A stretch of DNA of 23,835 bases from a virus: positions 1 through 23,835 of IMG/VR virus record IMGVR_UViG_3300007346_000247, one strand, 5' to 3'. Shown one piece after another: positions 5,794 through 23,103 of the stretch (within the stretch, counting starts at the first letter, position 1; every line of letters begins with the position of its first letter). The notes beneath the pieces were generated by a model that saw nothing but the letters and a program-made list of their open reading frames with translations, ran no database searches and had not been told where the DNA came from. The position numbers were made by a program, and so were the translations under genes.

Positions 5794-6294
5794 ATGAAAC
5801 TGTGTGTTTGCTGCGGCATTGAGAAGGACTCTTCGCAGTTTTACAAGGAGAAGAGAGTGGCAGACGGTCTCACCGCCAGATGCAAGCAATGCACCAAGGA
5901 AAAGGCGGGAAACAGTTATAGAACCAGAAAGACAGAAGTATTGGCGCAGCGAAAGGCTCAGTACGACAAGCGAAGAGAAAAGGACAAGAAGTTGCGCAAC
6001 ACCTATGGAATCACGCTTGAGCAATGGGAGGCAATGTTCAAAGCGCAGGGCAGTTGCTGTGCCATCTGCAAGTCGACTAGTCCAAATCACGGGAGCGGCC
6101 AATTTGTTGTTGACCATTGCCACGAATTCGGCCAAGTGCGCGGCATCTTGTGTGGCAAATGCAACATAATGTTGGGCCAGGCAGACGACAGTCACGACAC
6201 ATTGTTTGAAGCTGCCATGTACTTAGTTGCAAATTCCACTCCAGAGTCCATAGAAAAGCGCAAGCAAGCCCTACGGGCGGCGTTGGACCGCTAA
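5794..6294 (+). CDS. Recombination endonuclease VII-like nuclease
   Basis: 166 residues. The C-terminal half is the endonuclease VII domain: GSCCAICKS (C89-x2-C92), VVDHCHEFG (D107, H108, H110), VRGILCGKCN (C120-x2-C123-N124) and the hydrophobic AxYL end. In T4 endonuclease VII the four cysteines bind zinc and the Asp/His/Asn residues coordinate the catalytic metal; the enzyme resolves Holliday junctions and branched DNA before packaging. Residues 4-33 form the same small zinc-ribbon module (C4-x2-C7, C30-x2-C33) found at the start of the HNH protein encoded at 2030-2551. A basic helix (about 45-68) links the two parts. It starts six bases after the T run of the terminator, with no obvious ribosome site. 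Confidence 0.9.
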   Translation: MKLCVCCGIEKDSSQFYKEKRVADGLTARCKQCTKEKAGNSYRTRKTEVLAQRKAQYDKRREKDKKLRNTYGITLEQWEAMFKAQGSCCAICKSTSPNHGSGQFVVDHCHEFGQVRGILCGKCNIMLGQADDSHDTLFEAAMYLVANSTPESIEKRKQALRAALDR

Positions 6295-15230: not shown

Positions 15231-15532
15231 CATCGAAGCAGAAGCAATCGAAGGTGCGCAAGGTGATGCGCGAATTCAAAGCGGGCACCTTGAAGGGCGG
15301 TGACGGCAAGCCCGTGAAGAGCCGCCAGCAAGCCATTGCCATTGCAATGAGCGAAGCTGGCATGGAGAAGAAAGATAAGAGCGACGCTTATTGGGATGCC
15401 TACATCGACACGATGTGCGGCTCAATGAGCAAGGAAGGAATGGAGGATGAGGAAGAGATGGATGGCAATCCTGCTGAGGCTCGTTGCAAGGGCTATCTGT
15501 CAAGCCTGCGCAAGCGCAGAAAAAAGGGCTAA
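15227..15532 (+). CDS. DUF6496-type protein, zero-frame product
   Basis: 101 residues, starting in an ATGA overlap with the methyltransferase gene. The first 45 residues (VRKVMREFKAGTLKGGDG, then KSRQQAIAIAMSEAG) match DUF6496, a short basic domain of unknown function seen in phages and bacteria. Then comes an acidic stretch (MEDEEEMDG) and a basic C-terminus ending LRKRRKKG. The stop at 15530-15532 lies right after the slippery heptamer at 15520-15526. Ribosomes that slip there continue into the 15526-15876 frame to make a 216-residue fusion, so this may be the shorter of two products. In many phages comparable domains sit in one continuous head-associated protein. Confidence 0.75.
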   Translation: MTSKQKQSKVRKVMREFKAGTLKGGDGKPVKSRQQAIAIAMSEAGMEKKDKSDAYWDAYIDTMCGSMSKEGMEDEEEMDGNPAEARCKGYLSSLRKRRKKG

Positions 15533-15558
15533 GGGGCGACGCTGAAGGCTTCGCCCCT
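15520..15558 (+). promoter_or_regulatory. Programmed -1 frameshift signal
   Basis: The zero-frame codons AGA-AAA-AAG-GGC-TAA contain the heptamer A-AAA-AAG (15520-15526), the same as in E. coli dnaX. Five bases later a perfect 8-bp stem AGGGGCGA (15532-15539) with TCGCCCCT (15551-15558) closes an 11-nt loop. A small hairpin CTGCG/CGCAG (15506-15519 region) lies just upstream. The -1 frame is open through the site and continues 116 codons. All elements of a bacterial -1 frameshift are present except a clear upstream Shine-Dalgarno-like sequence. Confidence 0.8.
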
Positions 15559-15876
15559 CCTGCAAGCGTGAGAAGTGCTGCGCGGCGCGGCCTTGAGCTG
15601 CGCCGAAAGCACGGCAAAGGAGGGTTGACTACTAAAGAAGCTGGAAAGCAAGGCATTGGAAGCGGCGTGGCACGAGCCACGTCGCTAGCTAACGGGGACA
15701 AGGTTAGTGCGGAGACAATTCGTCGCATGGTTGCATTTTTCTCACGACACGAGAAAAATAAAAGTGGCGGAGAAGATGACGCCGGCTACATTGCTTGGCT
15801 TCTATGGGGTGGCGACGCTGGTAAGTCTTGGGCAAATCGAACACTTAAGATGCTGGAAAAGCGTCAACAAAAATGA
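15526..15876 (+). CDS. Frameshift extension with GYIAWLLWGGDAG-type phage domain
   Basis: This frame has no convincing start codon of its own: the first candidate is a TTG at 15484 inside the upstream gene, and the GTG at 15568 would cut into the conserved-looking beginning FAPPASVRSAARRGLELRRK. It is best read as the C-terminal 116 residues of a -1 frameshift fusion with the DUF6496 gene. The sequence has the order VRSAARRGLELRRKHGKGG, GSGVARATSLANG, SAETIRRMVAFFSRH and AGYIAWLLWGGDAGKSWANR, a pattern I recall from phage proteins of unknown function, often in head modules. The stop overlaps the next start in ATGA. Confidence 0.72.
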   Translation, partial: GLRGDAEGFAPPASVRSAARRGLELRRKHGKGGLTTKEAGKQGIGSGVARATSLANGDKVSAETIRRMVAFFSRHEKNKSGGEDDAGYIAWLLWGGDAGKSWANRTLKMLEKRQQK

Positions 15877-16190: not shown

Positions 16191-16481
16191 TTAGTCCTTC
16201 GTCGCATGAACGACGAAGGACGGATAGCCCATCAACCAGAGCACACTGAGCTGAAAAACTCCGCTCATTACTTTAATTTGCGCAACATCAGGGGCAAGGA
16301 TGCCGCTTTCAATGCGGGAGATGGTGGCCTGATCGCAGAATAGAAGCTCTGCCAGGGCTCGCTGTGAAAGACCGCAACTTTGGCGGGCGTCTTTAACTCG
16401 CGAGCCTATGAGAGCCTTTGCTTCGCTGTACGAGGAGCGAGGGCTTTTAACTTTACGCCCGACCAGATCTTTCTGCGTCAT
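16191..16481 (-). CDS. XRE-family helix-turn-helix regulator
   Basis: 96 residues from ATG at 16481 (the open frame extends further upstream but the region 16482-16541 looks regulatory). Residues 25-85 are a standard XRE/Cro-C1 domain: IGSRVKDARQSCGLSQRALAELL, then FCDQATISRIESGILAPD, with recognition helix around QATISRIES, and the ending FQLSVLWLMGY. The N-terminal 20 residues are basic. It should bind a palindromic operator, probably one of those in the adjoining 60-bp gap, and repress itself and perhaps the protease-scaffold operon. It is unusual to find such a gene on the opposite strand inside the head module. It could equally be a moron expressed on its own. Confidence 0.85.
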   Translation of the reverse strand: MTQKDLVGRKVKSPRSSYSEAKALIGSRVKDARQSCGLSQRALAELLFCDQATISRIESGILAPDVAQIKVMSGVFQLSVLWLMGYPSFVVHATKD

Positions 16482-16541
16482 TCTATGCAGAATAGCATAA
16501 TGTATAGTAGAATAGGCAAATAAAGCTTCTACAGTGTATGT
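16480..16541. promoter_or_regulatory. Divergent operator/promoter region at the XRE gene
   Basis: An AT-rich gap between the XRE start and the protease gene start. It contains overlapping inverted repeats: TATGC/GCATA (16484-16488/16495-16499), ATTCT/AGAAT (16480-16484/16489-16493) and GTAGAA/TTCTAC (16507-16512/16527-16532). TATAGT (16503-16508) and TAGAAT (16508-16513) are plausible plus-strand -10 elements. Confidence 0.5.
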
Positions 16542-17738
16542 ATGAGCACCACATCTTGCCGGTACGACGTTTCTCCTATTGAGAAATACGAAGTAACACC
16601 GGAGGGTTACCTTCGTGTGTGGGCTTCTATTGCTCGTACTGGTATTCAGCATTACACCGATGCTGACGGTTCTATCAGGAAGGAATTCCGTCCTGAAACC
16701 GAAGTGGCGTCTCCTGAAAGCCTTGCCTCATTTGCGGGGAAGGCCATCACTATGGAACATCCTCCTGTCCTTCTGGACAGTGAGAACACCAAGGATTACC
16801 AAATCGGTTTTACCGGCTCGGAAATTGTTTATGACAATGGCTTTGTAAAAGCCGTCATGACAGTGACTGATCGCGAAACTATTGACAAGGTAATGCGCGG
16901 CGATGTTCGTGAAGTGAGCGCCGGCTATAGGGTCAATTATGATCCGACGCCTGGCGTTACCGATAGTGGCGAGCATTACGACGGTATCCAAAAGGAGATC
17001 AGTGGTAATCACGTTGCTATCGTTCGTCGGGGCCGAGCCGGCCCGCAGGTGAGGTTGCATTTGGATCGCCAAGATGCTGCCGATCCCTCCCTACTTTCCA
17101 CTGAGGAAAATCAAACTATGTCCGCCAAAGTCGTTTTCGACGGCGCCGAGTTTGAGGTGAGCGAGAGCGTTGCTCTGGCGATCACCAAAGAACGCGATGA
17201 CGCCAAGATGTCCTACGAGGACATGAAAAAGAAGTACGACGAGCTGCAGGCTGCTGCTGATTCCATGAAGGCCGAAATGGACGCCATGGAAGAAGAAATG
17301 AAGGGCAAAATGGACGGGGCCGAAGGTCGCGCCGATGCCCTGGCCGAGCAAGTCGATTCTCTGAAGGCTGAGCTGGAAGAAGCCAAGCAAATCAACGTGG
17401 ATTCCATTGTTGAAGAGCGCCTGGCCCTTGTTTCCAAGGCTAAGCCCGTACTGGATGCCGCTTATGAATTTAGCGGCAAGAGCGACCGTGAAGTGATGGT
17501 TGACGCCATCAAGGCAGTTCGCGGCGACTCTGTTGCTCTGGACGAGCGTTCCGACGATTACGTCCTGGCAATGTTCGACACCATCTCTGAAGATGCTGCC
17601 AATCGCGCTGATTCCACCGAGGATCTGCGTAAGGCGGTGGCTTCCATCGCCACTCCTGCGTCTGCTCCCTCCTCGTATATCGAGAAGCTGCAGAATGCCT
17701 GGAAATCTCCCCTGTCTGTCTCCAAGGAGGCTAAGTAA
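16542..17738 (+). CDS. DUF2213-type prohead protease fused to scaffold
   Basis: 398 residues. Residues 1-175 are a DUF2213 domain, related to prohead proteases: KAITMEHPP (H73), DVREVSAGYR (S126) and GNHVAIVRRGRAG (H157) supply the His and Ser positions of the active site. Residues about 215-285 are a long charged coiled coil (YEDMKKKYDELQAAADSM and on), followed by a more compact helical end; this is the scaffold part. During assembly the protease would cut the scaffold and perhaps the capsid protein. An in-frame ATG at 17118 with GAGGA ten bases upstream could start the scaffold alone, as lambda Nu3 does within C. Next in line are the cement and capsid genes. Confidence 0.82.
   Translation: MSTTSCRYDVSPIEKYEVTPEGYLRVWASIARTGIQHYTDADGSIRKEFRPETEVASPESLASFAGKAITMEHPPVLLDSENTKDYQIGFTGSEIVYDNGFVKAVMTVTDRETIDKVMRGDVREVSAGYRVNYDPTPGVTDSGEHYDGIQKEISGNHVAIVRRGRAGPQVRLHLDRQDAADPSLLSTEENQTMSAKVVFDGAEFEVSESVALAITKERDDAKMSYEDMKKKYDELQAAADSMKAEMDAMEEEMKGKMDGAEGRADALAEQVDSLKAELEEAKQINVDSIVEERLALVSKAKPVLDAAYEFSGKSDREVMVDAIKAVRGDSVALDERSDDYVLAMFDTISEDAANRADSTEDLRKAVASIATPASAPSSYIEKLQNAWKSPLSVSKEAK
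17118..17738 (+). CDS. Possible internally started scaffold protein
   Basis: ATG 17118 in the protease-scaffold frame is preceded by GAGGA (17103-17107). It would encode 206 residues covering only the coiled-coil scaffold, beginning MSAKVVFDGAEFEVSE. The predicted start lies exactly at the boundary between the protease domain and the scaffold. This mirrors lambda Nu3 within C. It is an inference from the ribosome site and domain boundary. Confidence 0.4.
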   Translation: MSAKVVFDGAEFEVSESVALAITKERDDAKMSYEDMKKKYDELQAAADSMKAEMDAMEEEMKGKMDGAEGRADALAEQVDSLKAELEEAKQINVDSIVEERLALVSKAKPVLDAAYEFSGKSDREVMVDAIKAVRGDSVALDERSDDYVLAMFDTISEDAANRADSTEDLRKAVASIATPASAPSSYIEKLQNAWKSPLSVSKEAK

Positions 17739-21905: not shown

Positions 21906-22164
21906 CACTCCCATTGATTATCTGCAGAGCGACAACGGCGAGGTGCACGTAATCAACGCGACGGTTGACGGCCCAACACTAGAAGCCGGCATCTTATGCG
22001 TTATTTCATTCGCAGAAACTACCATTAGAATCTCAAACGAGCAACATTCGTTTCTGATTGAACTCCCGGAAGACGCTCGCACCAAAGGCGAACGACTGAA
22101 GGCGTTTAATGTGCCGTTGGCAATTTTGGATTATGAGCAAATACAGCTTTCTGCTGGCGTCTGA
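21898..22164 (+). CDS. Small tail-module hypothetical protein (88 aa)
   Basis: 88 residues overlapping the preceding gene by 8 bp and the chaperone gene by 32 bp. It begins MPDTPIDYLQSDNGEVHV and reads as a short beta sandwich (VHVINATVDGPTLEAGIL, ISFAETTIRISNEQHSF). No family is recognised. Its placement in the tail module suggests a minor tail protein. Confidence 0.55.
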   Translation: MPDTPIDYLQSDNGEVHVINATVDGPTLEAGILCVISFAETTIRISNEQHSFLIELPEDARTKGERLKAFNVPLAILDYEQIQLSAGV

Positions 22165-22678
22165 AGAGGTCAGCTACTTTGAACTCACGCCTGCTCTGCG
22201 CATGCAAAAGCATGGCGGATGGCTGATTGCTGAGAGTATCGAGCAAGAGGAGATCAGCAAGGCTCAAAGTCAGAGCACAATTAAAGCGGTGCAGCTTGCG
22301 AAGAAGATTGCCGCTGCGAAAGACATCCCTCTTGACGAGGCCTTTGAAATGCTCCAGGGAGGCGGTGGTTTTTCCGAGAGCGAGCTGTTGGCCGATTACA
22401 CCGAAGAAGCCCTCTTCATGATCACTGCAGGCGGCTCTGCGGAACTTGGGAATGCAAGGCTTATCACTGCATTTATGCGTTGCCGTGGCGAAGGAAAAAT
22501 TGGTGACAATTGGGAGCGTCTTACTGATTGGTCAATGGATGACACAAAAGGCATGACGCGAGAGCTGACTACTAAGGTGTTGGAATTTATTGCCGAAGAA
22601 CAAGATGCGGAGGTGAAAGCAGCACAAGCAAAAAAATCGAAGAGGAAGGTGAAGGAAGATGCCTTGCCGAACGAGTAG
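22133..22678 (+). CDS. Tail assembly chaperone, G-type, zero-frame product
   Basis: 181 residues from ATG 22133. Helix-rich with KAVQLAKKIAAAKDIPLDEAFEML, a glycine-rich loop, and ADYTEEALFMI. Ends in a lysine-rich tail KAAQAKKSKRKVKEDA. Size and position directly before the tape measure are those of lambda gpG. The slippery site near the 3' end produces a longer -1 frame fusion. The chaperones hold the tape measure protein soluble while the tail tube polymerises. Codons GCA-AAA-AAA-TCG hold the slip site; the stop is at 22676-22678. Confidence 0.78.
   Translation: MSKYSFLLASEEVSYFELTPALRMQKHGGWLIAESIEQEEISKAQSQSTIKAVQLAKKIAAAKDIPLDEAFEMLQGGGGFSESELLADYTEEALFMITAGGSAELGNARLITAFMRCRGEGKIGDNWERLTDWSMDDTKGMTRELTTKVLEFIAEEQDAEVKAAQAKKSKRKVKEDALPNE
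22609..22668 (+). promoter_or_regulatory. -1 frameshift signal of the tail chaperone
   Basis: Zero-frame codons GCA-AAA-AAA-TCG contain the heptamer A-AAA-AAA (22630-22636). A perfect Shine-Dalgarno-like GGAGGTGA (22609-22616) lies 13 bases upstream, where it stimulates -1 slippage in dnaX. A 7-bp hairpin with one bulge (22648-22655 with 22662-22668) starts 11 bases downstream. The -1 frame is open through the site and has no good start codon of its own. Confidence 0.82.
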
Positions 22679-23103
22679 AAAAACAAGCGAGAGCTTTCTT
22701 AAAGGGGCTCACTGATTGGGATGCCATCTTTTTTCGCCTTAATGCATCATGCCTTAAGGATGATCGATGGGGACCAGAAAGCTTTTCTAAACAAAAAGTA
22801 AAAGACGTAATTGCTGCTCTTAAATTTTTAGAGAAGCACGATCATTTGCAATACAATTTAAACAGTTTGTCAGTGGCCAAAATGGCCACAATGGTTGCGC
22901 ATGCGCTTGGAGGCAAGAAGGTAAGCCTTACTGCTGATGATTTCTTGCCATTTGATACGCGCAAACTCAAGAAGGAAACAGGCATTACCGACGAAAGCAT
23001 TATTGTGCTTAAGCGCTTGATGAAGACCAGGCGAATGGACGCCCGCGTTGTTTCGATGTTGGCAGAGGAACTTAAAAACGCTTCAATGCGAAATGATGAG
23101 TAA
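22636..23103 (+). CDS. Tail assembly chaperone extension (GT-type, -1 frame)
   Basis: Made only as a fusion with the G-type chaperone: 168 zero-frame residues followed by 155 from this frame, 323 in all. The extension begins KIEEEGEGRCLAERVEKQA after the slip and includes LKGLTDWDAIFFRLNASCLK, a helical part with FLEKHDHLQYNLNSL, and MKTRRMDARVVSMLAEEL at the end. In lambda the T part contacts the tail tube and tape measure. An in-frame ATG at 22870 or TTG at 22846 would give only a fragment, so independent translation is unlikely. Confidence 0.78.
   Translation: MEEEGEGRCLAERVEKQARAFLKGLTDWDAIFFRLNASCLKDDRWGPESFSKQKVKDVIAALKFLEKHDHLQYNLNSLSVAKMATMVAHALGGKKVSLTADDFLPFDTRKLKKETGITDESIIVLKRLMKTRRMDARVVSMLAEELKNASMRNDE

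Follow-up and report, generated by a model that had tools for sequence, protein, structure and literature searches.

Comparative sequence analysis indicates that a gene encoding a DUF6496 protein very probably undergoes programmed −1 ribosomal frameshifting. The gene lies in a 23,835-nucleotide stretch of DNA (positions 1 to 23,835 of the IMG/VR virus record IMGVR_UViG_3300007346_000247), here called the window, and its features are listed in Table 1. Ribosomes translating the DUF6496 ORF would pause over the heptamer A_AAA_AAG because of the hairpin just downstream, and a fraction of them would slip back by one base with both tRNAs, bypass the zero-frame stop, and read on in the −1 frame, so appending 116 residues at the C-terminus. 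The hairpin and the slip over the heptamer would in this way yield both forms from one gene, a short basic protein of 101 amino acids and a long form of 216 amino acids, at a fixed ratio. Comparison of sequences established the signal and its conservation, and from them we infer the slippage, its efficiency, and the products; the high confidence given here covers the frameshift and not the role of the two forms. The locus combines the elements of a −1 cassette, namely an in-phase X_XXY_YYZ heptamer, a downstream RNA structure, and a selected −1 ORF without its own start.

Table 1. Features of the frameshift site, in window coordinates
Feature	Position	Strand	Remarks
Zero-frame ORF, short product of 101 aa	15227..15532	+	DUF6496 domain, acidic linker, basic tail
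Slippery heptamer A_AAA_AAG	15520..15526	+	Canonical heptamer in 60/60 related −1 loci
Spacer, 5 nt	15527..15531	+	Overlaps zero-frame stop TAA, 15530-15532
Stimulatory hairpin, 8-bp stem	15532-15539 / 15551-15558	+	Arms AGGGGCGA / TCGCCCCT; supported by covariation and by a synonymous-recoding test
−1 extension, 116 aa, with GYIAWLLWGG domain	15526..15876	+	Entered at 15526 (GGG CTA AGG ...)

The zero-frame 3′ end of the 101-codon ORF reads CGC AGA AAA AAG GGC TAA. As the preliminary description had stated, the heptamer lies in the zero frame, a perfectly complementary 8-bp stem begins 5 bases past it, and the −1 frame (15478 up to a stop at 15874 to 15876) is open with no credible start; ahead of the domain, that frame offered a single start-like codon, a TTG at 15484, preceded by a weak GAGG and showing no conservation among relatives. 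The stop had been placed six bases past the heptamer, and one is indeed present, but it begins 3 bases after the heptamer and ends 6 after. The domain start, given as seven codons past the slip, is in fact eight codons away, with FAPPAS beginning at 15550. The lengths claimed for two products from one start, 101 residues and, for the joined zero-frame and −1 product, 216 residues, were reproduced; that both are made is a prediction. The zero-frame product matched DUF6496 (PF20106) over residues 3 to 44 (E=2.2e-10; 41.2 bits against a Pfam gathering score of 24), while no Pfam family was matched by the −1 part. In-phase heptamers of the form X_XXY_YYZ, with Y being A or T, were rare, occurring at three of 4543 positions in the 20 main plus-strand genes of the window, and these included the sites at 15520 and 22630.

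The gene order of the window matched that of Synechococcus phage S-CBS4 and comprised terminase, portal, glycosyltransferases, methyltransferase, the DUF6496 frameshift gene, repressor, head maturation protease, cement protein, and major capsid protein. Many uncultured phages related to S-CBS4 share the frameshift gene, a small gene amid the head genes. The helix-turn-helix repressor-like gene between it and the protease lies on the minus strand (16191-16652), and a repressor occupies the equivalent place in S-CBS4. Two endonuclease VII-like HNH genes, at 5794-6294 (+) and 2030-2722 (−), are possible homing endonucleases. Within the tail module, the in-phase A_AAA_AAA at 22630-22636 joins the ORF at 22109-22678 to a 155-codon −1 ORF at 22636-23103 and is probably a classical tail-assembly-chaperone frameshift; the same run was seen in S-CBS4 (L114, near 15404), upstream of the tape-measure gene.

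Relatives were gathered by C-domain and N-domain searches, the C domain being that of the −1 extension, which returned several hundred loci before duplicate removal. Among the distinct loci, 60 had the C domain encoded in frame −1 relative to the DUF6496 ORF, 18 had one continuous ORF, and three were scored as +1, two of these having one A fewer in the run and the other being a mis-parse of L083. The preliminary description had held that the signal would be real if relatives either encoded both domains in one frame or conserved the heptamer plus stem, and the alignment of homologues returned both outcomes. All 60 −1 loci contained a canonical in-phase heptamer (A_AAA_AAG in 46, G_GGA_AAG in 10, and C_CCA_AAG in 4, including L047), at a distance from the stop of 3 nt in 55 loci, 0 nt in four, and 15 nt in one. 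No heptamer was found near the stop in 70 distinct DUF6496 ORFs lacking the C domain, and no heptamer plus stop was found beside C domains with partners other than DUF6496.

IMG/VR was scanned for any three G or C bases (SSS) before AAAG together with the 5′ arm of the hairpin. This gave 45 distinct sites, related to one another rather than independent, every one of which had GGG or CCC and none any of the six mixed G/C triplets; with the A form included, at least 141 distinct but likewise related sites were counted, and a simple motif test recognised the C domain after at least 130 of them. A scan of genome contigs gave three loci only; one was a member with the frameshift, from a metagenome bin labelled Rhodobiaceae, and its contig is probably that of a phage. 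When slip types were mapped on the C-domain tree, they switched among A, G, and C at least 8 times among the frameshift loci, each switch arriving at another heptamer able to re-pair. The feature under conservation appears from this to be slippage itself.

The six-A run in the window could also be taken as a site of transcriptional slippage, with mRNAs containing an extra A giving the fusion by normal translation, and L029, where a comparable gene has seven A and is in frame, would fit such a process. However, six A is short for polymerase slippage, 14 of the 60 loci use GGGAAAG or CCCAAAG with runs only a few bases long, and the codon-phased heptamer, its spacing, and the hairpin suit ribosomes. 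Transcript slippage is very unlikely.

Ribosomal slippage gains further support from the hairpin. In a gap-free alignment of 37 relatives, 98.6% of the pair cells were kept, and both-side changes were seen in two of the eight pairs, for example from C-G to A-U in seven sequences; the covariation exceeded that of all 500 shuffles and of all slid registers. Compared with synonymous recodings that preserve the −1 protein, the hairpin stability had a mean z of −2.16 in 49 frameshift loci versus −0.07 in 12 in-frame loci encoding much the same RGDAESF(A/S)PP motif (p=9e-5, which is only indicative because the loci are related). Folding of a single 111-nt stretch of the window gave a z of −1.04, which is uninformative because the GC-rich surroundings pair in many ways, and the recoding test was used instead. 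By that test, the downstream hairpin was absent from L060, L162, and L137 of the C_CCA_AAG group, which may use another stimulator. An upstream Shine-Dalgarno-like stimulator was also considered and rejected: no clear element was present in the window, and the enrichment among relatives (23/60 loci against a 22% background) was weak and may be accounted for by acidic GAG/GGA codons.

A rival view has the downstream ORF translated independently, either from a start codon of its own or through reinitiation past the zero-frame stop. In the −1 frame, none of the 60 loci had an ATG in the interval from the previous stop to the domain, and 39 of the 60 had no ATG, GTG, or TTG there; likewise, a good ATG for the second frame combined with loss of the slip site, the situation that would have spoken against a frameshift, was found in none. 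What can be cited for two separate genes is the TTG at 15484 and the public annotation of the isolate S-CBS4 (NC_016766), where the same slip site is present (L114, 8001-8653) and two hypothetical proteins are listed, gp018 and gp019, the latter as a separate CDS that begins at a GTG within the conserved domain. Separate genes would, however, leave the heptamer, the switching between slippery types, the hairpin, and the repeated in-frame fusions unexplained, and they too are very unlikely. On the comparative evidence, the S-CBS4 annotation appears instead to split the frameshift gene and to truncate its second part to the internal GTG.

In close pairs, dN/dS was 0.02 to 0.17 in the zero frame and, where dS was estimable, 0.01 to 0.12 in the −1 frame, indicating purifying selection on both frames; between the window and L005, dS was saturated in the N part. 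Homopolymers are prone to errors, and L064 and L080 each have one A fewer than near-identical relatives, which puts the domain out of the −1 frame; either a real mutation or an assembly error may be responsible there. As an account of the layout as a whole, errors in sequencing or assembly, and likewise the inactivation of a fused gene by a frameshift mutation, have a negligible chance of being correct, given that the same layout recurs in dozens of independent metagenomes and in the isolate S-CBS4, that some heptamers are not homopolymers, that both frames are under purifying selection, and that the hairpin covaries.

In-frame fusions, which encode the same kind of product as the slip would give, appear to have arisen several times, with six changes on the C-domain tree, four of them forced by well-supported branches. 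One case could be followed at the nucleotide level: L029 reads AGA AAA AAA GTA GAT AGG where L030 reads AGA AAA AAG TAG ATA GGG, so that one extra A converts the frameshift form into the in-frame form. In this fusion (L029, 4680-5327), a −1 slip on the seven A would yield a short product, the reverse arrangement and like that of dnaX. In L082 (near 5298; N protein 89% identical) and L095 (near 5173), the domain has been deleted and the slip site is gone as well, while the N protein is kept and short remnants of the 3′ end of the domain are still present. With fusion-only relatives on one side and domain-loss relatives on the other, a fixed ratio of both forms is therefore not essential in every lineage.

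These variants bear on what the frameshift is for. The ratio of forms may be unimportant, a mobile domain having landed out of frame with slippage as its first route of expression; this competes with the functional part of our explanation and not with the frameshift, and we regard it as a serious possibility, although a somewhat doubtful one. The four to six changes to in-frame versions and the loss of the domain in close relatives agree with it, and the same view has been reported for Ig-like domains of phages (PMC5009743). Against it, the heptamer and hairpin have been kept over long divergence, though a one-base insertion would fix the frame, and the in-frame forms fall within the frameshift group when outgroups are used as the root, on a tree that is poorly resolved and in which two outgroup rows fall inside.

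A functional role for the two forms is suggested by the company that the C domain keeps. Elsewhere it is joined to Phage_portal, Phage_portal_2, Peptidase_S78 or capsid polyproteins, and DUF6582 proteins, its place in other phages being the C-terminus of the portal or the N-terminus of the prohead-protease polyprotein; in isolates, it stands at the front of the capsid polyprotein or of an ORF that precedes the capsid gene by three genes. Fold matches among viral models included prohead proteases and portals. An AlphaFold2 model made for L029, an in-frame homologue, was helical, with two confident parts, a loose linker, and a mean pLDDT of 84.8; searches of solved structures by sequence and fold gave no credible relative. 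Gene order and these partners, the basis for a role in the head, suggest that the C domain is a head-assembly adaptor; being found on portals and protease polyproteins, it plausibly docks its protein to the portal, protease, or scaffold. The short form could be a bulk component of head assembly or of the head interior, with the adaptor domain carried by a minority long form, a proposal we make tentatively. With similar reserve, the C domain may represent a further promiscuous domain family of phage heads, alongside the Ig-like one, that is spread and dosed by frameshifting, with the ratio of the two forms a selected control of head assembly maintained by swapping three heptamers.

Among known systems, dnaX of E. 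coli likewise has a downstream hairpin at close spacing, but its shift leads to the shorter of the two products and is stimulated by an upstream Shine-Dalgarno element. In the window, the shift would give the longer product and no clear Shine-Dalgarno-like element is present, and relatives use G_GGA_AAG or C_CCA_AAG; the heptamer A_AAA_AAG itself is the same in dnaX and the window (PMC5009743).

The preliminary description knew of no frameshifting in a head-module protein of this kind. However, −1 frameshifting is on record for head genes of T7 and T3 (gene 10, major capsid), Lactobacillus phage A2, and Listeria phages A118, A500, and PSA, and the Ig-like domains of phages are attached through a frameshift in some cases and in frame in others (PMC5009743). 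The novelty therefore lies in the gene family and its natural variants and not in the idea: the mechanism appears to be classical −1 frameshifting, newly seen in the DUF6496 family. In the literature searched, which left most subscription papers outside its scope, no description of a DUF6496 frameshift and no mention of DUF6496 were found.

A close parallel is with the Ig-like extensions of T3 gene 10, Lactobacillus phage A2, and the Listeria phages, in which frameshifting gives some copies of a head protein a promiscuous domain that occurs in frame elsewhere (PMC5009743). The DUF6496 base protein differs in being small and not the major capsid protein, the C domain is also found on portals and proteases, and its helical model in L029 sets it apart from the beta structure of Ig-like extensions. 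Lambda G/GT also makes a short abundant and a long rare form from one gene, with an adaptor domain on the long form (PMC5009743), but the proteins and their place are different, and in the window a separate site, at 22630, is probably the tail-chaperone one. Set beside these systems, the DUF6496 gene is a case of frameshifting with good support that involves neither a tail chaperone nor a major capsid gene; it occurs in phages common in IMG/VR and is one whose product had been split and truncated in the S-CBS4 annotation. Its natural series, in which the domain is absent, reached by frameshift with A, G, or C heptamers, or fused in frame, allows an old question to be tested directly by comparing relatives: whether the ratios set by frameshifting in phages are important, or are left over from domains that were inserted out of frame.
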